DNA from: Chryseobacterium paludis
GTDB taxonomy: Bacteria; Bacteroidota; Bacteroidia; Flavobacteriales; Weeksellaceae
NCBI RefSeq assembly: GCF_025403485.1
Contig: NZ_CP099966.1
Location: 4,772,501 to 4,836,500 of the forward strand
Length of the DNA stretch: 64,000 nt
Direction of reading: 5' to 3'
Below, piece by piece: positions 1,921-13,433 of this stretch. Numbering within the stretch: the stretch's first letter is position 1; every line of letters starts with the position of its first letter. A program made the translations under genes and the position numbers. The notes under the pieces were generated by a model. It had not been told where the DNA came from and searched no databases. It saw only the letters and a list, made by a program, of their open reading frames with translations.

Positions 1921-1949
1921 TTTGCTGTGACGTAAAAAGAGTATTTTTG
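1921..1949 (+). promoter_or_regulatory. Bacteroidetes-type promoter of the RHS operon
   Basis: TTTG at 1921-1924 and TATTTTTG at 1942-1949 are separated by 17 bases. This matches the Bacteroidetes sigma-ABfr consensus (TTTG at -33, TAnnTTTG at -7). It leaves a leader of roughly 35 bases before the ATG at 1991. It is the best promoter match in the left half of the window and is the only obvious one for the four closely spaced genes 1991-11200. Confidence 0.75.
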
Positions 1950-1990: not shown

Positions 1991-3520
1991 ATGAAAAAAC
2001 TCTATATGAGTGCACTTTCACTGTGCATCATGGGCGTATCTGCCCAGCAGGTCATTTGGCAAAAGGATATTAAATCCAGTACACAGGATTTCCTGAGCCA
2101 GGTGACAACAACGATAGACCAGCAGTATTTAATTACTGGAAGTGCAATTCAGGCATCTAAAACAGAAGGTGAACAAAATAATGGGTACGATTTTCATTTG
2201 GTGAAACTGAATCAGCAGGGAGATCAGGTTTGGGAGAAATACTTTGCAGGAAATAATCATGATTATCTTTCTTCAACTGTAACAACGCAGGATGGAGGAT
2301 CGCTTATTTCAGGAACCACTTTTTCTGGAAAATCATTAGACAAAAAAGAAGATTCTAAAGGTGGATCAGACATTTGGCTCATTAGAATCAATGAATTTGG
2401 CGATGAATTGTGGCAAAAGACTTTAGGAACGAGTGCTGATGAAGAAGCAAGATCAGTTATCCAAACTACTGATTTAGGTTTCTTTGTAGCAGGTAATGTA
2501 CAAAACTCTGCTAAAGGTTATGGTTCAAAAGATGTCTTGATTATAAAACTTGACAAAAATGGAAAAGAACTGTCACAATCTGTATTTGGTGGAAGAGGAA
2601 ATGACGAAGTTGAAAAGATGATACCAACTCGTGACGGTGGAGCTTTGTTAGGAATCTATTCCAGAAGTAGTGCTGGAGGTTCAAAACAAACTGAAAACTT
2701 TGGTGAAGGTGATTTTTGGATTATAAAACTTTCAAAAGAAGGAAAAGTAGAATGGGAAAAGAACTTTGGAGGAAAAGGAGATGATCATTTGAGAACACTG
2801 GCTCTAACTTCAAATGGATATATCATTGGTGGAGAATCAAGATCTGAAAGATCAGGAAATAAAACTGTAGGAATTGAAGAAGGAACTGATGTTTGGTTAA
2901 TTTCTTTAAATGAAAGAGGTGATGAGCAGTGGCAGAAATCTTACAATTTTAAGAATAGAGATGTTTTAATGGGAATTAGTGTGATTCATTCTGCAGATGA
3001 TAAAACAAAAGGAATTCTATTAGGTGGTTATACCCAGGCGGAGGGAAGAATAGAAGCTGATGATGAGAAATTCTGGATGCTATATCTGGATCAAAACGGA
3101 AATGAACAGTGGAGGAAACATGTGGAAGGGGAATCCAGAAAGAGAGAGGAAAGGTTATCTGATATTAAGCTCAACAGAGATGGCTCAATCATACTTGCAG
3201 GAACAAGTGCAGAAGAATTAGGAAAGGAGAACTGGAAGATTATCAAACTAGGTGACAAACAATTGGATCAGTTAATAGAGAAACAAGATATTAAAATTTA
3301 TCCAAATCCGGTTTCTGATTATGCGTATGTAGAAATTGGTTTTGACTTTAAAGACGCAGATATCACATTATATGATATGGGTGGAAGACAATTACAGAGT
3401 TTGAAAACGAAGAATAAAGTAACGAAGATCAATACTCAGGCATTGATCCAGGGAGCATATTTGATAGTCATCAAAACGGATACTAATAAAACAGCGAATG
3501 CTAAACTGATTAAGAAATAA
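1991..3520 (+). CDS. T9SS type A sorting domain protein with repeated propeller-like blades
   Basis: This 509-residue exported protein starts with a signal peptide (MKKLYMSALSLCIMGVSAQQ). The body repeats a block of about 55-60 residues of the pattern W-x-K-x-aGG-x-x-x-D-x-x-x-S-x-x-x-T-x-DGG-x-x-x-x-G-x-S-x-S, followed by GSDIWLIRIN-like strands, suggesting a beta-propeller. The last 75 residues, starting IKIYPNPVSDYAYVEI and ending AYLIVIKTDTNK plus KLIKK, form a T9SS type A sorting domain. It should therefore pass the inner membrane by Sec and the outer membrane by T9SS, ending on the cell surface or outside. It is first in a four-gene operon; only two bases separate it from the next gene. 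A surface adhesin or anchor role for the RHS proteins behind it is inferred. Confidence 0.85.
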   Translation: MKKLYMSALSLCIMGVSAQQVIWQKDIKSSTQDFLSQVTTTIDQQYLITGSAIQASKTEGEQNNGYDFHLVKLNQQGDQVWEKYFAGNNHDYLSSTVTTQDGGSLISGTTFSGKSLDKKEDSKGGSDIWLIRINEFGDELWQKTLGTSADEEARSVIQTTDLGFFVAGNVQNSAKGYGSKDVLIIKLDKNGKELSQSVFGGRGNDEVEKMIPTRDGGALLGIYSRSSAGGSKQTENFGEGDFWIIKLSKEGKVEWEKNFGGKGDDHLRTLALTSNGYIIGGESRSERSGNKTVGIEEGTDVWLISLNERGDEQWQKSYNFKNRDVLMGISVIHSADDKTKGILLGGYTQAEGRIEADDEKFWMLYLDQNGNEQWRKHVEGESRKREERLSDIKLNRDGSIILAGTSAEELGKENWKIIKLGDKQLDQLIEKQDIKIYPNPVSDYAYVEIGFDFKDADITLYDMGGRQLQSLKTKNKVTKINTQALIQGAYLIVIKTDTNKTANAKLIKK

Positions 3521-3522
3521 CT

Positions 3523-6500
3523 ATGAAAAATTATATAAAAAAAACTTTACCTATCCTATTAAGTTTTTTATCCATTTCTTTTTATGCACAGGATTATAAC
3601 AGTTTGTTCTCTTCAAAAGGGGCAGCAGACGGGACTGATGCTTTTAATATTGTTCCTCCTTCTCCCGAATCATTTTTCAGGACGCAATTTGGAAACCTAA
3701 ACTTTAATGAATTTAAGGGATCCCCAAACATCCAAATCCCAATACATGAACTAAAAAACGGAAGTTTAAAGCTTCCCGTTTCTTTAAATTATTCTAAAGT
3801 AGGGGTGAAGGTGAATGATATTCCTAATAGTGTAGGAATGAACTGGATCTTAGAGACTGGTGGTATCATTACCAGAACCATATATGACCTTACAGATGAG
3901 CTTGCATCACAAAGATTAGTTCTCAGTCAGACGGAGTTAGGTAATTTATCTTCTCAGGCCGGAGCTCAGGATCTGGGAGTTTATTCCCATGATATATCAA
4001 CCTCAATAGATAATGAAATTGATGTATTTAATTATTCAATTCCGGGATATAGTGGAAGCTTTTATTTAGATAAAACCTTCAAACCTGTACTTCTGACTCA
4101 GGATTATAATCTTAAACTTGAAGCTGTAGATAATAACTTTAAAGTAAGTAACGCCTTTACCATTACTACCTATGACGGAACAAAATATACTTTTGGTGGA
4201 GTGGGAGCTACAGAAAAGACATTTGTAAGACTGCAGGGAAATCGCAGTGGGATCACCAGCTTTTATTTAAAAACAATTGAAGATGTTTTGCATAATAAAA
4301 TTGAATTTAATTATAATCAGGCGAATTCAAAAATAATTCCATTAGGTGAACAGGAAACAGGACAGTTGGAGTCCTCAGCCACAGCCTCAGGAACAATAGA
4401 TGTAGCACCATCTGGCGCAGGCATTGGGACTTCTGGTAAAGTACTTAATGTAGTTGAAGCTAAATTTCTTGATAAAATTACTGCTGGAGATGAAATTATC
4501 CAATTCAATTACATTATAGAAACAAACAGTCCTTTTCAAAAGTTGGGGAACATAGTTATTTCTCAAAAAGGGGTTAATATCAAGAAAATGTCCTTCGATT
4601 ATCTTAATAGCGCTGGGGCAACAGTCAGTGAAAAAAGATTTTTCCTGACATCTGTTAAAGAATATGCCATCCATAGCAATGTAGATACTTTTGTCAATGA
4701 GTATACTTTAGACTATAATAATGCATTAGATCTTCCTAAAAGACTATCCAGAAGTGTTGATTATCTTGGATACTTTAATGGTAAAAATAATACAGCATTA
4801 TTACCTAATCTGAAATTATTTGGAGAGCAGTATGCCCTTTTTAATATGAATGGTAATTATGCAGACCGCAGAGTTAACTTTGGTTATGCGCAATTTGGAA
4901 CCCTGAAATCTATTACTTATCCTACAAAAGGAAAGACGATGTTCGAATATGAGTCAATAGAGGCTAAAATTCCCATCAATTATATTGGTGATTGTGTCAT
5001 TGGAAATACAAATTATTTAAATCTTCCTTTGGTTTTCGAACAAGATTGGCTCCCATTAACCAATGAATCAACATTTACCCACCATGTTTCAACGATAGAT
5101 GGAAATAGTGTCAATGCTCAAATTACTTTGATGCTTCATTCTGACAAGGAAATAAATCAACCCAACAAAGCAAATGCATTATTTGAAATTACAGATCTGG
5201 CAACCAATCAAGTGGTCTTTAGTAAAACGATCACTGTAATAAAAATGATCCAGGATATAACCAATACATATACTTTCACATTAGCCAATAACAAATCTTA
5301 CAAATTCAATTTTAAAGTAAAAGATATTTGTTATGAATGTAACGGAAATGCACATATAGAATATCCGAATGTCTGGCAAAGAGTAGAAGACTCTAATATC
5401 AGGCTAAAAAGACAGTATGATGTTTCTGAGACCGGAACGATCAATATTAAAAGACTGTATTATACAAATTATCAAAATATTAATAATTTTGATGTTCTTA
5501 GTGCGCCTTTACATCCTGGATTTAAGTCCTATGTATATAATCAGGTACAAGGGACTACTACATTACCGCCGCCAAATGACTGTGCTACTTGTTTTTCTAC
5601 CATGTATGAAACGCTTTTTCATTCAGATATTCAAAGCACAAGAATGGGTTCGGTTTTACAGGATGGAGAAGAGACTTATATTGATCTTAATGATCCTGTA
5701 TATCCCTTGGTTACAATTAGCTATGGGGGAGATAACTTTGAAAAAGGAGGAGAAGAAAAGATATTTGATATGAAGGCTTATACAGTTCTTAATACTATTC
5801 CTTTCAGGTTGCCAAATGTAAGCGGAATGGCTAACAGTCAAATAGATAATTCAAGCATTTTAAATTTATTATCCGGGTCAGCTGAAAATACCCTGTATAA
5901 GCAGTTACCATTAGGTAATATTCAGGGGAAATTAATTTCACACCGTATATTTAATAATAAAAACGGGACTTTATTTGTAAAGAACAGTGTTAAAAATGAT
6001 TACACTGCAACAATGGGAAATACGGTTTATAGTGTTGCCGGTATTCAGCTTTATCCATATGTAACCCTGCCTCCAGGAGTAAATGCGTCTACCTCATTAG
6101 ATAATATGTACATTGGAGCTTATAGATTTCCAACGTATTCTTCTTTCCTGAATTCAAGTAAAACTACAGAATATTTAGAAGATGTGCCTCTGAATGTTAC
6201 AGATGATACTTCTTATAAAAAATTGATTACAACTACAAATTACGTATATGACAGTTTAGATAAGCAGCTTTCAAAAAGCACCACGCAGACCACTGATGGT
6301 AGTGTTCAGGAAACAACTTATTTGTATGCACGTGAAAAAAGCAATCAAAAGTTGATTGATGCCAATATGATTGGTATTCCTTTAGAAACTATAGCAGTTC
6401 AAAAGCAAAATACAGGAGATTCCGGAAAAGTAGTTTCCAGATCAGAAACAAAGTATGATGCCCTTAATAGTTGGCTTCCAAGTTCTGTACTGTCCTACGA

Positions 6501-6987
6501 TATGTTAAATAGTACGCCTTCCACAGAAATTACTTATGACTGGTACGATGGAAAAGGACATATCATGCAGTATACTCCAAAAAATGGAATTCCGGTTACT
6601 ATAATCTGGGGATATGGTAGTACCCAGCCTATTGCTAAAATAGAGGGAATTGCCTATAGAGATCTACTTAGTATTGCTCAGGCTAATGTTACACAGATTA
6701 TGACGGCTTCAGATTCAGATCTAATTAATTCGGCTACTGAACCTGCACTGATAACCGCATTGGATAATTTCAGAAAGAACGCTGATTTGTCAGCTTATCA
6801 AATTACAACCTATACGTATGATCCATTGATCGGAGTTACCAGTATCACTCCACCTTCGGGAATCAGAGAAGTCTATATCTATGACACAGCCAATCGATTA
6901 AAAGAAATCCGTCAACAGGAAAAAGACAGTTCTGGAAATATGGTATATAAGGTGGTTAAAGAGTTCAAATACAATTATAAAAACTAA
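3523..6987 (+). CDS. Large secreted YD/RHS-like protein
   Basis: A 1154-residue protein with a signal peptide (MKNYIKKTLPILLSFLSISF, cleaved near YAQD). It is rich in Tyr, Asn, Thr and Asp. The N-terminal part has a conserved-looking module (LKLPVSLNYSKVGVKVNDIP, then GMNWILETGGIITRTI) that I associate with the partners of DUF6443 proteins in Flavobacteriia. The C-terminal third carries YD-repeat elements such as TNYVYDSLDKQLSKST, TTYLYAREKSNQ, ITYDWYDGKGHI and YIYDTANRLKEIRQ. There is no RHS core and no toxin tip. It sits two bases after the T9SS gene and six bases before the RHS gene. I infer that it forms part of a shared extracellular or periplasmic shell with the RHS protein, comparable to the B/C split of Tc toxins, but this is untested. 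Confidence 0.75.
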   Translation: MKNYIKKTLPILLSFLSISFYAQDYNSLFSSKGAADGTDAFNIVPPSPESFFRTQFGNLNFNEFKGSPNIQIPIHELKNGSLKLPVSLNYSKVGVKVNDIPNSVGMNWILETGGIITRTIYDLTDELASQRLVLSQTELGNLSSQAGAQDLGVYSHDISTSIDNEIDVFNYSIPGYSGSFYLDKTFKPVLLTQDYNLKLEAVDNNFKVSNAFTITTYDGTKYTFGGVGATEKTFVRLQGNRSGITSFYLKTIEDVLHNKIEFNYNQANSKIIPLGEQETGQLESSATASGTIDVAPSGAGIGTSGKVLNVVEAKFLDKITAGDEIIQFNYIIETNSPFQKLGNIVISQKGVNIKKMSFDYLNSAGATVSEKRFFLTSVKEYAIHSNVDTFVNEYTLDYNNALDLPKRLSRSVDYLGYFNGKNNTALLPNLKLFGEQYALFNMNGNYADRRVNFGYAQFGTLKSITYPTKGKTMFEYESIEAKIPINYIGDCVIGNTNYLNLPLVFEQDWLPLTNESTFTHHVSTIDGNSVNAQITLMLHSDKEINQPNKANALFEITDLATNQVVFSKTITVIKMIQDITNTYTFTLANNKSYKFNFKVKDICYECNGNAHIEYPNVWQRVEDSNIRLKRQYDVSETGTINIKRLYYTNYQNINNFDVLSAPLHPGFKSYVYNQVQGTTTLPPPNDCATCFSTMYETLFHSDIQSTRMGSVLQDGEETYIDLNDPVYPLVTISYGGDNFEKGGEEKIFDMKAYTVLNTIPFRLPNVSGMANSQIDNSSILNLLSGSAENTLYKQLPLGNIQGKLISHRIFNNKNGTLFVKNSVKNDYTATMGNTVYSVAGIQLYPYVTLPPGVNASTSLDNMYIGAYRFPTYSSFLNSSKTTEYLEDVPLNVTDDTSYKKLITTTNYVYDSLDKQLSKSTTQTTDGSVQETTYLYAREKSNQKLIDANMIGIPLETIAVQKQNTGDSGKVVSRSETKYDALNSWLPSSVLSYDMLNSTPSTEITYDWYDGKGHIMQYTPKNGIPVTIIWGYGSTQPIAKIEGIAYRDLLSIAQANVTQIMTASDSDLINSATEPALITALDNFRKNADLSAYQITTYTYDPLIGVTSITPPSGIREVYIYDTANRLKEIRQQEKDSSGNMVYKVVKEFKYNYKN

Positions 6988-6993
6988 GACACG

Positions 6994-9900
6994 ATGAAAA
7001 AAATACTCATTCCAATAGGAGCTTTGCTAATGAGTGGACTGGTCCATGCGCAGCTTTCTCCTACAGAAAACTATATATATTCAAAAACCTATCTGGATTA
7101 TAACGGAACTCAGCCCTCAAAATTTTCAGAAACTGTTCAGTATTTTGATGGATTGGGAAGACCTAAACAGGTAGTTAATATCAAAGCATCTCCGACGGGA
7201 AAAGATTTAGTAACCCCTATTTTATATGATGGTTTTGGAAGACAGACCAGAGATTATCTTCCTGTTCCTCAGCAGTCAACTACTGGCGGAGCCATATACA
7301 GTCAGACTCCAGGTTTGATTGATTTCCCTGTAGGTGATCCTTCCGGAATGTATCCGGGAGAAAAGGCTTTTTCTGAGAAAAAGCTTGAAGAGTCGCCTTT
7401 AGACCGACTACTGGAACAAAAACAGGTTGGAACTGCATGGAATGATAAACCTGTCAGATTTGAATATGGCACAAATGTGGCATCAGAGGTTAAAAAGTAT
7501 GTAACCGTAACAACCCCAGCCAATGGTACTACATCTTCAGCAATAGGCTCAACTACGGCTACCTATGGTGCTAATCAATTATACAAAACTACGGTTACTG
7601 ATGAAGATGGAAACAAAACCATAGAGTTCAAAAATGGAAAAGGACAGGTTTTATTAGTGAGGAAAGTAATTAATGCTAGTGAAAGTGCAGACACATATTA
7701 TGTTTATAATGAATATAATCAATTGGCTTTTGTCATTCCCCCAAAAGCATCTGTAGTTGCTAATGTAAATACTGTATTAGGTAGTCTATGCTATATTTAC
7801 AGGTATGACGGAAGAAATAGGCTTGCGCTTAAAAAATTGCCTGGAAAAACCTGGGAATATATGGTGTATGATAAACAGGACAGGGTTATCATGACTCAGG
7901 ATGCTGTAATGGGAGCCAATAAACAGTGGCTTTTCACCAAGTATGACCAGTTCGGAAGGCCAGCTTATACCGGAATATATACCTCAACACAAGCTTATGG
8001 GCTTGTAGGAAGAGAAGTGGAACAGACAAAGGCAGATGCAGCAGGCAGTAACAATGTAGCTAGAACCGCTTCTGTAGGATTTAATGTTGGTGGACGTGGG
8101 GTATATTATGACAACACCGCTTCTACAAGCTATCCTAATTCCATTACTTCGCTTTTAAGTATTAATTATTACGATACCTATCCTGTATATGGATTTAATC
8201 CAACATTTCCGACCAATATTTTAGGAATCCCTGTAATGACAGATAATTCGACAGGAAACTCTGTAAGTACAAAAAGTCTTCCTGTGATGAGTATGGTAAG
8301 AAATATCGAAGATACTAACTGGACCAGCAATTATACCTACTATGATAACAAAGGAAGAGCCATAGGAACTCATTCTGTTAATCACTTAGGTGGGTACACA
8401 AGAACAGAAACTGAACTGGATTTTGCCGGGATAGCTAAGAGAACTAATACAACGCACCTAAGAAAGCTTGGTGAAATAGGGGTCAGCATACAGGAGCGTT
8501 TTGTTTATGATGCTCAAAACAGGTTAAAGCAACATTACCATCAGGTGAATAGCGGAGCTGAAGAGCTTCTGACAGATAATTCTTACAATGAGCTATCACA
8601 GCTGAATAACAAAAAAGTAGGAAACAATCTTCAAAGTATAGATTATAGCTACAACATAAGAGGCTGGTTGACCGATATCAATAAAAACCAGATGTCGGTA
8701 GCCAATCTGGAAGGGAAACTGTTTTCTTATAAAATTAAATACAACCAGAAAGAAGGGGTTACCAACCCTGATTCGGTATTGTTTCCCGGTAAAAATGTTG
8801 AGGCTAAATACAATGGAAACATTGCCGAAGTAGATTGGAGAGCCGTGGAAGCAATTGGAGCTAATCCGTCACTTACACCCAAAAGATATGGTTATGTTTA
8901 TGATAAGCTAAACCGACTAACGGCAGGTTATTATCAAAATCCAAATAACCCCAACAGTAAAGAAAATACAGAATCTTTAACCTATGATTTGAATGGAAAC
9001 ATTACCAATCTTTACAGAACCTCTGTATTGCAAGGGACAATCGCCACAAAAATTGATGATTTAGAATATACTTATCTAGGAAATCAGGCAATATCAATTA
9101 AAGACAACAGTGGTAACAGTACCGGTTATGAGGGTACTGCTGGTCTTCCGATCACTTATGATCTAAATGGTAATATGCAAACGATGGCTGATAAATCTAT
9201 TTCAGGCATTGCATACAACCATTTAAATTTACCTGATCAACTGGCAATAGATAAAGGGACACAAGTTGCCGAAATTTCCACCAAATACAGTGCTAACGGA
9301 ATGAAGTTGAGGAAAGAAAACTATACCTCTTCTTCAGGAGTTGCAGGGACAACATGGTCAAAAGTAGTTACAGATTATCTTGATGGATTCCAGTATGTGA
9401 ATCAAACCAGCTCAGGAGGAGGTAGTGGTGGTGGAAGTACCGAGATGATGATGGATAAACTTGAAACATCAAGAGCTTTGGAAATGGAAGCTTATTCTGT
9501 AGAACCAGTAAGTGCTATGGTTGGTTTAGAATCAAAGAATCCTGAGCTTCAGTTTTTCCCAACAGCAGAAGGATTTTATGATTATACAAAAGATCAGTAT
9601 ATTTACCAGTATAAAGATCATTTAGGAAATGTAAGAATAAGTTTCGGAAGAAACAGCGCAGGTGCTCTTGAGATTACAGATGCTAATGATTATTACCCAT
9701 TTGGGATGAATCATTTAAAAACAGGAAATTCTTTCTTTAGTCCGAGTGCTTATAAAAACTATAAGTACAATGGCAAGGAGCTACAAGAGACGAGTATGTA
9801 TGATTATGGAGCAAGGATGTACATGGCGGACATTGGTAGATGGGGTGTGGTAGATCCGCTAGCAGAAATATACCCTTCAACAAGTCCATTTAATTACTGT

Positions 9901-10596
9901 AATAATAACCCCATTATGTTTATTGATCCTACTGGAATGACAATAGAAGATCCTGATGATCTAGTGAAAAAACAGAAAGAGATGTTAAAGGATACAAATA
10001 GTGCAATTCAACAATTTGTTAAAAGTGGGGGTATGGATGCTGATTTGGGAAATAAATTAATTTCTTTTAATGAAAAAGTTCTTGGAGAGATTTCAAGTCT
10101 AGAAAAGTCTGACCAGGTTTATAATGTTTCAGATGTTGGTACGGGGGAGAGTGGAATGTCATATGATGCTAGTAATGCTAAGGTAATTATAAAATCCGAA
10201 AATGATTATGGATTACTTGGACATGAATTAAAACATGCATACCAATTTGAAAAAGGAGAAACATCACTTGCAATTGATAACAAAAGCTATGGCAGTTTAT
10301 ATGATGTTAGTGATGAAACAGAAGCATACAATAGGGAGAGATATCATAAATCCGGTAGAGATTATATTGAAAAATCAAGTACATATGTTTGGAAGAACTC
10401 GGATGTACTAAAATTTGGTACTACAATGACTCCTCCGGCATATCAAACTTTACCAGCAGGTCCAATAAGTATTAACTCTAAAGAAGGTAAGGAATTAATA
10501 AAAAGAACAATAGAAGCTGGTAAATTAGGAGTTCCTGCTAAAGAAGTATATAAAGGATGGCAAAAAGACTATCAAAAAGGAAGTGAAAAAAAATAA
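6994..10596 (+). CDS. DUF6443/RHS repeat protein with C-terminal metallopeptidase-like toxin tip
   Basis: A 1200-residue protein with a signal peptide (MKKILIPIGALLMSGLVHAQ). Residues 20-150 resemble DUF6443 (VQYFDGLGRPKQVV, LYDGFGRQTRDYLP). YD repeats follow up to about residue 800, then a Ser-Gly linker near 806-815, then the RHS core (YKDHLGNVRISF, YYPFGMNH, YKYNGKELQE, YGARMYMADIGRWGVVDPLA) ending in FIDPTGM at 978-982. The tip, about residues 982-1200, is a new domain with GHELKHAYQ (H1077, E1078, H1081) and downstream DETEAYNRE (E1108, E1110). HExxH plus a downstream Glu is the layout of zinc metallopeptidases such as the M91 effector group. A polymorphic toxin is thus likely; substrate unknown. 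The downstream neighbour at 10604 is the natural immunity candidate. Confidence 0.85.
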   Translation: MKKILIPIGALLMSGLVHAQLSPTENYIYSKTYLDYNGTQPSKFSETVQYFDGLGRPKQVVNIKASPTGKDLVTPILYDGFGRQTRDYLPVPQQSTTGGAIYSQTPGLIDFPVGDPSGMYPGEKAFSEKKLEESPLDRLLEQKQVGTAWNDKPVRFEYGTNVASEVKKYVTVTTPANGTTSSAIGSTTATYGANQLYKTTVTDEDGNKTIEFKNGKGQVLLVRKVINASESADTYYVYNEYNQLAFVIPPKASVVANVNTVLGSLCYIYRYDGRNRLALKKLPGKTWEYMVYDKQDRVIMTQDAVMGANKQWLFTKYDQFGRPAYTGIYTSTQAYGLVGREVEQTKADAAGSNNVARTASVGFNVGGRGVYYDNTASTSYPNSITSLLSINYYDTYPVYGFNPTFPTNILGIPVMTDNSTGNSVSTKSLPVMSMVRNIEDTNWTSNYTYYDNKGRAIGTHSVNHLGGYTRTETELDFAGIAKRTNTTHLRKLGEIGVSIQERFVYDAQNRLKQHYHQVNSGAEELLTDNSYNELSQLNNKKVGNNLQSIDYSYNIRGWLTDINKNQMSVANLEGKLFSYKIKYNQKEGVTNPDSVLFPGKNVEAKYNGNIAEVDWRAVEAIGANPSLTPKRYGYVYDKLNRLTAGYYQNPNNPNSKENTESLTYDLNGNITNLYRTSVLQGTIATKIDDLEYTYLGNQAISIKDNSGNSTGYEGTAGLPITYDLNGNMQTMADKSISGIAYNHLNLPDQLAIDKGTQVAEISTKYSANGMKLRKENYTSSSGVAGTTWSKVVTDYLDGFQYVNQTSSGGGSGGGSTEMMMDKLETSRALEMEAYSVEPVSAMVGLESKNPELQFFPTAEGFYDYTKDQYIYQYKDHLGNVRISFGRNSAGALEITDANDYYPFGMNHLKTGNSFFSPSAYKNYKYNGKELQETSMYDYGARMYMADIGRWGVVDPLAEIYPSTSPFNYCNNNPIMFIDPTGMTIEDPDDLVKKQKEMLKDTNSAIQQFVKSGGMDADLGNKLISFNEKVLGEISSLEKSDQVYNVSDVGTGESGMSYDASNAKVIIKSENDYGLLGHELKHAYQFEKGETSLAIDNKSYGSLYDVSDETEAYNRERYHKSGRDYIEKSSTYVWKNSDVLKFGTTMTPPAYQTLPAGPISINSKEGKELIKRTIEAGKLGVPAKEVYKGWQKDYQKGSEKK

Positions 10597-10603
10597 TGTA
10601 ATC

Positions 10604-11200
10604 ATGAAAAAAAAAATTAACCTATGTTTCATTTTAATGTCAATTTGTATTTTTTCACAAAGTAAATCAGGTGTATATTCATATAAAGCACCTCATTATT
10701 TTGAAAGTATAAATTTATTAAAAAATGGAACTTTTAAATATTACAAAAAAACAGAATTTTTAAAAGAGGAAATATTTGGAAATTGGCAGCTAAGAAATGA
10801 TAGTATACTCGTATTAGATAGTTATCCTCAAAAGTCAAAATTAAACGTTATTGAAGGATTAATAAAGAAAAAGAGGACCATTATTCATGTTAAAGATTTT
10901 AGTGACAATCCGTTTCACTATTATTTATATTCAATATCAACTCAAAATGACACAATTATTTATAAAGATCAATTTGAAACAACTATCATTAAGGAGAAGC
11001 CTATTTCTTTTTATTTAATAAGTTCAGAAGGTTTACATTCTCCTGTTTATAAGATCAAAGGAACAAGAAGTAATTTTTTCGATGTAAAATTTGAACGACA
11101 AAGGATATTTGAAAATGAGCAATGGAAGTTTTTAGAAAATAGTTTAATTCCCTTAGGTCTAGATGGTAAAAATTCAAATTATAAATTAGTAAAAGAATAA
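10604..11200 (+). CDS. Candidate periplasmic immunity protein, unknown family
   Basis: A 198-residue protein with a signal peptide (MKKKINLCFILMSICIFSQS). A GTG at 10583 in the same frame would overlap the RHS gene; I chose the ATG at 10604 because the signal peptide begins there. The mature part is rich in Lys, Phe, Tyr and Ile, with LKNGTFKYYKKTEFLKEE and GNWQLRNDSILVL, a pattern often seen in small secreted beta-rich proteins of this phylum. No known family is recognised. It follows the toxin-tipped RHS gene by seven bases and is followed by a strong terminator, so it ends the operon. By position it is the likely immunity protein, acting outside the cytoplasm; this is inference. Confidence 0.6.
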   Translation: MKKKINLCFILMSICIFSQSKSGVYSYKAPHYFESINLLKNGTFKYYKKTEFLKEEIFGNWQLRNDSILVLDSYPQKSKLNVIEGLIKKKRTIIHVKDFSDNPFHYYLYSISTQNDTIIYKDQFETTIIKEKPISFYLISSEGLHSPVYKIKGTRSNFFDVKFERQRIFENEQWKFLENSLIPLGLDGKNSNYKLVKE

Positions 11201-11207
11201 CCTACGC

Positions 11208-11240
11208 TGCCGCACGAATCGTTTCGTGTGGCATTTTTTA
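11208..11240 (+). terminator. Rho-independent terminator of the RHS operon
   Basis: A stem of TGCCGCACGAA against TTTCGTGTGGCA with a short loop (one G-T wobble) is followed by TTTTTT. It lies eight bases after the stop at 11200 and closes the operon. Confidence 0.85.
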
Positions 11241-11539: not shown

Positions 11540-11720
11540 AAACTAAGTTTCTAAAGTTATTGAAAAAGTATTACAGTTGAAAAAGTAAAAAAGACATTTT
11601 AAAACAAATGTAAGTTTGTAATCTTTAGAAAAAATATAATTGTAAAATCTATTGATTTTATGATAATTGTGGAAAAGTCTTCTTTTGAATAAGGGAGACT
11701 TTTTTTTACATTTACATATT

Positions 11721-12709
11721 ATGAAATATGATAATGACTATATTAGAAAAGAAGCTGATGACAAACTGAAAGGTAAATTCAGAAATCTTTTTATGCAAAA
11801 TAATATAAAGTTAAAAGAACATTCGGGTTCAGCAGGAGAAGATAATGGAACAAACTTTTATTTTGACGTAACAAATGAAAATGAGGAACATATTTTTTTC
11901 ATTATAAATCAGAATAAAGGAACTTGTACGGATTTACAGATTAAGAATGAAGAGATATAAATTTTGGTAAAATATATCACAGAATTAGTCTAATAAACGC
12001 AATCAACTATTATACTGAATTTGACGAAGCAATAATTTTCACGATATGTGATTTGGCAAATAATAATATTTATTGGTATGATATACAAAATGATATTATT
12101 TTAAGAGACAGGATTTTAGAGCAAAAAAGTAATGATATTGACGCTAGTCAAATATATATACCAACGGAAAATATTTTGAATGAGAGTACATTTAATGATT
12201 TTCTTAATAAGATTGAAAATGCGAAATTAATTCAAATTCGAAAGAAAAATATTTTAAATGAAAATTACGAAGCTGATTATTCCAAAATAGAAACTGAAAT
12301 AAGTGAAAAACGTACTATTGATAAAATTGATTATACATTAAATTTATTTGAAGGAATAAAGGTTTTTCCTACAAAAGTAATTTGTAAATTATTGTCTTTT
12401 GGTGAATCTGACGATAGTAAAAGCCACATAAGTGGATTTAGTTTTTACACTTATAATGAAGAGTTCTTTAGTTTAATGGAAAAAGTAAAATTGTCAAATA
12501 ACCAATTTACATTAACAGATAATGAATCATTTGTCAATAATCAAAATGAAAAAATAAAAAATATAGTTTCTTTTTTACTAATAAATCATATTCACCATAT
12601 CTGGTGGAGAGGAAAAGAACAAAAAGAACAGATTTGTGTACATAAGTTTCATTATAATAAATGTAATTGTGAGAGATGTAGTTTAGGAAGATGTAAAAAA
12701 GTATTTTAA
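11721..12709 (+). pseudogene. Frameshifted gene, DUF4365-like layout with Cys-rich C-terminus
   Basis: Two adjoining frames look like one gene. The first starts at ATG 11721 (MKYDNDYIRKEADDKLKGKF) and stops at 11960 after INQNKGTCTDLQIKNEEI. The other frame reads through from 11951 (RDINFGKIYHRISLINAIN) and continues FDEAIIFTICDL and NIYWYDIQND to 12709, with no start codon at its beginning. Loss of one base near 11955-11962 would explain this. The order of acidic N-terminal block, Q-N-K strand and a YW strand recalls DUF4365, a nuclease-like family, but the match is weak. The end (ICVHKFHYNKCNCERCSLGR) has five Cys and two His and could bind zinc. AT-rich like its neighbours. Confidence 0.4.
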
Positions 12710-12794
12710 AATAATAGTATGAAAACTTACGACCTTAATTTTACCCCTTAGAGGTCATTGAACTTTTTATTTCCAATATTATATATGAAATTTA

Positions 12795-13433
12795 ATGGCA
12801 CAACAGAATTTTAAAATCGTCGAAACAAATTATAATCTTAATGATTATGAGTCAATTAGAAAGGATTTACTAAATTTTGAATTTTTTAGACAAAATCTAA
12901 ATACACATAGAACCTGTACTAAACACAAGGCAAAAGATGAATTTAGAGTTATGGCGAATGATAACAAGAAATTCTTTTTAATGATAGATAATGAGGAAAA
13001 TGCATTAGCTTTTTTAAATGCCGATGAAGCACTTGATTATGGATTATTGGAAACGGACTTTCAGGAGGAGATAGAAAAAATCACTTCAGAAAACATTGAG
13101 AAAAAAGCTGAAGAATTTTTAAACCGCTTTAATAAAAAATTCCAACTTGATGTCAATTATAATCCAAGCGAATCAGATATTGAGGAAATCGACAGGAGAG
13201 TAAAAAAGACTATCTGGGATAAGGAAAATCGTTTTCTATTAAATTTTTACATGATGGCGGTAACCAAAAGAAAATTCAATTTTTCTGAATGGAAGTTTGA
13301 AAAGATAAATACTTTTAATCCTTTTTATATTCCTCAATACGTTAGAAGGAATGGTTCTTTTAACACTTATTACGGTATTTTAAATCCAAAGTCAAGAAAA
13401 TACTTTGATTTCAAACAGTATATAGGGCTATAA
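12795..13433 (+). CDS. Hypothetical protein
   Basis: A 212-residue soluble, charged protein (MAQQNFKIVETNYNLNDYES) without signal peptide or membrane segment. The middle is strongly helical and acidic (DFQEEIEKITSENIEKKAEE) and the C-terminal 60 residues are aromatic and basic (FYIPQYVRRNGSFNTYYG). I do not recognise a family. It lies 85 bases after the frameshifted gene, on the same strand, in the AT-rich stretch downstream of the RHS operon. An orphan immunity protein or remnant of a defence or toxin cassette is possible but unsupported. Confidence 0.55.
   Translation: MAQQNFKIVETNYNLNDYESIRKDLLNFEFFRQNLNTHRTCTKHKAKDEFRVMANDNKKFFLMIDNEENALAFLNADEALDYGLLETDFQEEIEKITSENIEKKAEEFLNRFNKKFQLDVNYNPSESDIEEIDRRVKKTIWDKENRFLLNFYMMAVTKRKFNFSEWKFEKINTFNPFYIPQYVRRNGSFNTYYGILNPKSRKYFDFKQYIGL

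Follow-up and report, generated by a model that had tools for sequence, protein, structure and literature searches.

The question raised by a stretch of the Chryseobacterium paludis genome is how a Rhs-type protein, encoded beside a putative substrate of the type IX secretion system (T9SS), is built and exported. The stretch analyzed, hereafter the window, comprises 64,000 nucleotides at positions 4772501-4836500 of a 5.05 Mb single-contig genome, and four tightly packed genes at 1991-11200 of it encode a beta-propeller protein, a YD protein, a DUF6443/RHS protein and a small protein. We propose, as a reading that is on balance probable, that these genes form a polymorphic Rhs toxin cassette with a two-chain capsule, propeller-aided export by the T9SS and an immunity protein encoded by the fourth gene.

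The four open reading frames (ORFs), all on the forward strand, are separated by intergenic gaps of 2, 6 and 7 bases, exactly as the first-pass annotation had described them. The first (1991..3520) encodes a 509-residue beta-propeller protein with a Sec-like start and a T9SS sorting domain, the second (3523..6987) a 1154-residue YD protein predicted to be the TcB-like front part of a shell, the third (6994..10596) a 1200-residue DUF6443/RHS protein predicted to supply the TcC-like rear part of the shell and a toxin tip, and the fourth (10604..11200, with an ATG start at 10604 and an alternative, longer GTG-start ORF at 10583-11200) a 198-residue protein with a Sec-like start that is the predicted immunity protein of the tip. 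Judged by eye, Sec-like signal peptides are present at the N-termini of all four proteins, as had also been noted.

That the YD and RHS proteins build one shell is well supported by single-chain structural models and by one natural fusion. In structure comparisons, the YD model matches TcB over 29-1155 as well as the SpvB N-domain, and the RHS model matches the end of TcB plus TcC. On the single-chain Rhs shell 8qjb, the YD model covers 360-791 and the RHS model then covers 781-1403, while on 8uxt the corresponding matches are 324-698 and 716-1452; on 8qjc the two (360-740 and 714-1420) overlap by about 26 residues. Because the front of 8qjb and 8uxt is covered by the YD model and the rest by the RHS model, we rejected on balance the possibility that the RHS protein alone is a complete shell of the type VI secretion system (T6SS) type. 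The natural fusion, at locus L248 (5540-13735), is a single ORF of 2731 residues in which the YD profile matches within 38-1024 and the RHS profile at 1309-2431. The proposal that two proteins build the shell had come with the suggestion that both be modeled; each, folded singly, gave a shell-like model, and the proposal holds at that level and through the L248 fusion.

Within the YD protein, an SpvB-like N-terminal region spans residues 66-384 (3718..4674) and the most conserved C-terminal part spans residues 898-1154 (6214..6984); the YD paralogues of the same genome share 35-55% identity with it over C-terminal stretches and 27-35% in pieces further upstream. The window protein has no family match in Pfam (E up to 1) or NCBIfam (E up to 0.1), and against the Protein Data Bank (E up to 1) the only matches of the YD profile are TcB chains, which are weak (E 0.11). 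No propeller family was recognized in the YD proteins (37 members at E 0.01, the window protein at E 1), although this is a weak test, as Pfam also missed the SpvB-like domain seen in the model. A Rhs core was found in 36 of 36 RHS proteins and in 0 of 37 YD proteins, in agreement with the first description of the YD protein as lacking a core. A DUF5977 domain was found in seven of the 37 YD proteins scanned; those of L011, L012, L013 and L014 have this domain together with an additional tail.

The RHS protein carries DUF6443 at residues 32-158 (7087..7467; PF20041, E 5.4e-32) and a Rhs core at residues 900-982 (9691..9939; TIGR03696, E 8.5e-17) that contains the autocleavage-type motif PIMFIDPTGM and aspartates 954 and 978. 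The fit of this motif (P973-IMFI-D978-PTGM) to PxxxxDPxGL, the autocleavage motif described for Rhs proteins in PMC8765631 (this and the other articles cited by PMC number are referred to for their accessible portions), is complete except that M replaces L, and the aspartate pair D954/D978 is present; D954 and G981 are invariant in 61 RHS sequences. In 50-residue blocks, identity of these 61 sequences to the window protein is 0.33-0.66 over shell and core, except 0.12 at the gap-rich 801-850, and falls to 0.16-0.23 after residue 1000, and one RHS paralogue of the same genome matches it with 84% identity over 1-983 and no further. A Rhs core ahead of a variable C-terminus, the hallmark of polymorphic Rhs toxins, is thus present. 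The variable tip (9943..10593) matches no Pfam family and is metallopeptidase-like by its HExxH motif, HELKH at residues 1077-1081 (nucleotides 10222-10236); all 20 aligned tips, that of the window among them, retain HE[LM]xH. Two of the 20, P0124 and P0126, are from the same organism, and the alignment does not include six remote tips (L209, L210 and L212-L215) or the broken G174 tip. The earlier description of a DUF6443/RHS protein with a metallopeptidase-like tip is borne out by these matches.

In 8 of 55 cassettes, including the C. paludis RHS genes at 282806 and 205863, the DPxG end of the core is replaced by an ELEGLE-, ELEGME- or EGME-type end, and because the core ends in ELEGLE or ELEGME rather than DPxG, the tip may stay uncut in those RHS proteins. 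Displaced core-plus-tip pieces lie behind two C. paludis cassettes, at 472743-475993 and 432684-433454. Relatives of the RHS protein were also found on 43 of 72,556 plasmid records, including a Chryseobacterium shandongense plasmid at 44% identity.

In its distribution, the fourth gene resembles an immunity gene for the predicted toxin tip. In the protein database, 12 proteins match the tip and 23 match the fourth protein (each count includes the window's own), and the tip was found in 16 of 173 genomes of the genus, C. paludis included. A close tip (at least 54% identity) occurs in two other genomes, once on an orphan ORF of 325 residues and once broken, and as in both of them a homologue of the fourth protein (58-70% identity) lies directly behind the tip, the fourth gene is read as encoding immunity; for the window tip, the toxin/immunity pairing suggested by the first-pass annotation is accordingly supported by comparison, that is, by homology and position in 2 of 2 close tips. 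Among 55 cassettes, here the eight of C. paludis and 47 named loci (L055, L061, L079 and L091 dropped), 26 pairs share tips at least partly and three pairs share the gene after RHS, all three being within the 26 (Fisher p 5e-6, from pairs that are not independent); one of the three, L057 and a C. paludis copy, is a near-identical whole cassette. Among the eight C. paludis C-termini, one pair has a common stretch of 65 residues. A simple rule classes 26 of the 55 downstream proteins as apparently exported and the other 29 as not, so the tips probably act in different compartments.

Both shell models also match teneurins and SGS1, and a surface system rather than a weapon, with a structural or adhesive YD-RHS shell as in teneurins and tips that diversify for other reasons, would fit those matches. 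However, C-termini that vary behind a conserved core, displaced core-tip pieces and a downstream gene that moves together with the tip are typical of polymorphic toxins and make such a system improbable.

The propeller-YD-RHS cassette itself is firmly established. The C. paludis genome holds eight, which differ in their C-termini and downstream small genes, and the order is kept in 51 of 55 named loci with median gaps of 6 and 6 nucleotides; given these occurrences, the order is not due to chance. The four exceptions are L065 with a split YD gene, L095 with an additional gene, L111 with fragments and L116 with two YD genes. The 55 were drawn from 80 named loci, all of Chryseobacterium, as those with at least 8.5 kb behind the propeller, which excluded 24 shorter ones and L114, where no ATG-start propeller ORF was found; in L055, L061, L079 and L091, the propeller ORF found with an ATG start does not reach the length of the protein match and was counted from an internal ATG. 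The first reading had proposed to check whether the gene order is conserved in other genomes with varying tips and had spoken of a unit of four genes. The first three genes do co-occur, while the fourth varies between cassettes, as immunity genes do, and a constant four-gene operon is ruled out by the gene behind RHS, which differs from cassette to cassette. A propeller match was found in the C. paludis genome and in all 19 other genomes of the genus listed, with up to 11 matches per genome (some genes counted twice).

Among 148 genomes of the family, the propeller profile was found in 56 (E up to 1e-30), the YD profile in 66 (E up to 1e-20) and DUF6443 in 74 (E up to 1e-3), 68 of them over the cut-off. 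At 11 of the 16 family-level loci read, from six other genera, a propeller gene at 28-57% identity lies upstream of YD, and two of these propeller loci, L188 and L197, have an additional coiled-coil gene between YD and RHS. Sixteen class-level loci from nine families were chosen among the stronger matches, leaving out weaker DUF6443 matches in very long ORFs. Separate YD and RHS genes are present at 14 of them (side by side at 10, with a single small gene in between at 4), and the remaining two are L248, with its single ORF for both, and L263, which has no YD match. Many weaker DUF6443 matches of the class lie in single ORFs of about 2000-5800 residues, among which further single-chain YD-RHS forms may exist.

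The first gene encodes a T9SS-sorted, propeller-like protein, as was first described. Its type A C-terminal sorting domain at residues 436-509 (3296..3517) matches TIGR04183 over 1-72 of 72 (E 8.7e-11) and also PF18962 (E 5.6e-11), while a profile built from its paralogues matches chains of CylK, a beta-propeller enzyme (E 7e-16), the C-terminus matching chain 5jvk_A. The seven paralogues of the same genome are 86-92% identical to the window protein. Among the propeller copies of the genome, the proteins are 81-96% alike while fourfold-degenerate sites are 42-76% identical, which suggests that the copies are old and that the protein is under strong constraint; the same fourfold-site values, read without a saturation baseline, led us to reject recent gene conversion as what keeps the copies alike. 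Averaged over 55 cassettes, identity is 0.84 for the propeller, a value inflated because the loci were found by propeller similarity, versus 0.27, 0.20 and 0.38 for the front, middle and end of YD and 0.51-0.55 for the RHS body. The contrast is the same in the eight C. paludis cassettes alone (propeller 0.87; YD 0.27, 0.21 and 0.37; RHS body 0.52-0.56). The pairing of a constant propeller with a highly variable YD front points to variable targets for that front.

The sorting domain was found in 8 of 8 propeller proteins, 0 of 37 YD proteins and 0 of 36 RHS proteins, so the propeller alone qualifies as a T9SS type A substrate; one RHS protein of the 36 gave a weak match to a different model, 3-coathanger stack. 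SprA is present in the genome, and co-export through the T9SS would be the most likely way out for the capsule. The first-pass annotation had called the system independent of the T6SS, which was overstated: a Bacteroidota-type T6SS sheath gene (TssC, PF17541) is present elsewhere in the genome (a search for the sheath with PF05943 found nothing), and independence rests on Sec-like N-termini, found by a simple rule in 47 of 55 RHS proteins, and on the lack of any PAAR, VgrG or T6SS adaptor match in the four window proteins with Pfam and NCBIfam. That TssC gene, together with one RHS protein of 36 that matches the T6SS effector family Bfe1, would suit a cassette that is an orphan Rhs store for the genome's T6SS, with RHS as a T6SS effector; the N-termini and the missing adaptor domains argue against it, and we regard this explanation as very improbable.

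Several results weigh against a propeller-exported two-chain capsule. YD and RHS proteins themselves carry no recognized T9SS signal (37 and 36 scanned). Support for the shell comes from separate single-chain models rather than a modeled complex, and several T6SS Rhs chains agree with it less well: on 8h8a the YD and RHS matches overlap by about 77 residues, and on 8h8b, 7q97, 8uy4, 8cp6, 8qja and 8qjd the YD fit is poor (root-mean-square deviation 7-16) and the matches overlap. The YD C-terminus and RHS N-terminus co-vary (rho 0.38, 0 of 500 permutations), a signal that we set aside as confounded by linkage, as it may reflect DNA neighborhood alone. Because propeller similarity served to find and rank the named loci, intact cassettes are favored among them. 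A ninth C. paludis YD-RHS pair (144912-153413; locus L195, 144912-154898), which is the remaining family-level locus, has upstream a protein of 480 residues that is not a propeller; at four of the 16 family-level loci, all of genus g23, the place of the propeller is taken by between two and four proteins with a Sec-like start and a coiled-coil end; and a propeller is found at only one of the 16 class-level loci (L259, of a second family). As for immunity, no homologue of the fourth protein lies within about 1.5 kb of the tip in 13 genomes with remote tips, and several long tip matches come without a match of the next gene, e.g., L103-L118 with 59% identity over 298 residues.

Because the ninth pair, the g23 loci and the class-level loci have another partner or no propeller, the YD-RHS pair can apparently work without it, and the family- and class-level loci indicate an old two-gene shell that is distributed across the class and for which three or more partners exist, the T9SS propeller being one. 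The upstream partners of 480-521 residues at L195, L248, L253 and L261 are related to one another (22-37% identity in matching pairs), and by eye their ends look like outer-membrane barrels. Proteins with a Sec-like start that end in a KIEELTLYSIEQNK-like coiled coil adjoin YD-RHS at L183, L184, L190, L194, L095, L186, L188, L197 and L253, and those tested, three from L183 among them, are also related to one another. No convincing Pfam or NCBIfam family was found for the alternative upstream partners.

This replacement of the propeller by other partners in other lineages, and propeller distances that correlate little with YD or RHS distances (rho 0.03-0.26), speak for a reading in which the propeller is instead a separate, co-regulated T9SS surface adhesin or receptor-binding protein, and YD and RHS form a two-chain capsule that leaves by another route or by lysis. 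We consider that possible but unlikely, as the propeller gene directly precedes the others, with almost no gap, in 51 of the 55 loci, stands upstream of YD also in the six other genera and at L259, and encodes a protein that looks unusually constrained.

A promoter-like TTTG-N17-TATTTTTG of the Bacteroidota type lies at 1921..1949 (+), recognized from the sequence and a motif scan, and a terminator-like hairpin of 11 pairs with a T run lies at the operon end (11208..11233, +). The full motif TTTG-N17-TANNTTTG, the Bacteroidota promoter consensus, occurs upstream of 12 of 82 cassettes versus 17 of 1640 shuffled sequences and 17 of 1580 random pieces, and among the eight C. paludis cassettes only before the window copy. 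The single promoter first claimed for the operon is plausible from the motif. Just upstream, on the opposite strand, is a LysM-type gene (708-1727), and behind the operon are three small ORFs (11667-11960, 12053-12709 and 12795-13433) that have no family match over the cut-off, the last with a weak MC5 match; the small ORFs in 11667-13433 may be leftover immunity genes.

Among the closest known systems are the Tc toxins, whose TcB-TcC shell is described in PMC6868009, and the T6SS Rhs effectors, of which the RhsA shell is described in PMC8765631. Compared with the Tc toxin BC component (YenB-YenC2, TcdB2-TccC3), the chain break comes earlier here, so that the portion corresponding to the final stretch of TcB falls within RHS; no TcB-type propeller was recognized in YD (in the weak test noted above), while a T9SS-sorted propeller is encoded separately. 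No TcA-like neighbor was recognized beside the C. paludis cassettes, as judged from ORF lengths and end residues beside them rather than by a genome-wide search. A TcA-less relative of the Tc capsule that uses the T9SS can be envisaged, in which the separate sorted propeller would replace in trans the gate and docking propeller within TcB, escort the loaded two-chain capsule through SprA and present it for contact killing, with a barrel-like or coiled-coil partner swapped in by other members; we offer this more specific scheme tentatively and think it rather doubtful, in part because the test for a propeller within YD is weak. Like the T6SS Rhs effectors RhsA, RhsP and S. bongori Rhs, the system has a shell, a core and a variable tip with an immunity gene, but those are single chains with a PAAR/VgrG link, whereas here there are two chains with Sec-like starts.

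Links between Rhs proteins and the T9SS have been drawn before. In Apibacter, most rhs genes adjoin genes with T9SS type A sorting domains, many encode SpvB/TcdB N-termini, and a T9SS link was proposed (PMC8125069), so that the window system resembles them in gene neighborhood; it differs in that its shell is split over two genes, while the accessible account neither models a capsule nor assigns a role to the sorting-domain protein. T9SS export has also been speculated for the TANFOR toxins of Bacteroidetes (PMC7073777), which likewise have a Sec signal, a polymorphic C-terminus, an immunity gene and a neighboring protein with a T9SS C-terminal domain, but which have a SprB-repeat neighbor and a TANFOR N-terminus where the window system has a Rhs-type shell; our Pfam and NCBIfam scans gave no TANFOR match, the presence of a TANFOR model in these libraries being unconfirmed. 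The TcdB/TcaC-like export class, defined by signal peptide, SpvB and propeller (PMC3482391), shares with the window system the signal peptide and SpvB, and includes Bacteroidetes and HExxH tips (Tox-MPTase families), but joins SpvB and an integrin-like propeller in one protein, whereas the propeller recognized here is separate and of the SBBP/delta-60 type. A split shell with a propeller is not described in the accessible parts of these three articles, of the two on TcB-TcC and RhsA, of PMC12635249 on T9SS transport, or of PMC5913662 and PMC6421346 on rhs genes in relatives. Our literature searches found no paper on DUF6443 or on T9SS, Rhs and YD repeats together, and on the T9SS with Rhs or polymorphic toxins only remarks on adjacency in the accessible texts. 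The early view that such a system is uncharacterized thus holds for the split shell with a propeller, as far as the searchable literature goes, but not for the Rhs-T9SS link, which the Apibacter study had already proposed.

Based on the above, we propose that the YD protein would supply the capsule front, with the SpvB-like domain and the first shell strands, and the RHS protein the rest of the capsule, its closing protease-type core and the tip. Sec would carry both across the inner membrane, and in the periplasm they would form the capsule around the metallopeptidase-like tip, which is probably clipped off at the DPTGM motif, and the fourth protein would neutralize the tip in the periplasm of the producer. 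The propeller, as the sole carrier of a T9SS sorting signal, would then most likely bring the capsule out through SprA or hold it at the cell surface.

If this is true, the T9SS would export a toxin capsule that has no sorting signal of its own and rides on a partner, and would take part directly in competition between bacteria, a possibility raised and, in the accessible texts, left untested in PMC7073777 and PMC8125069. The cassette also provides naturally occurring shells divided at a new position, and its modular series of constant propeller, variable YD front, conserved shell and hypervariable tip would be useful for assigning export, targeting and killing to individual parts.

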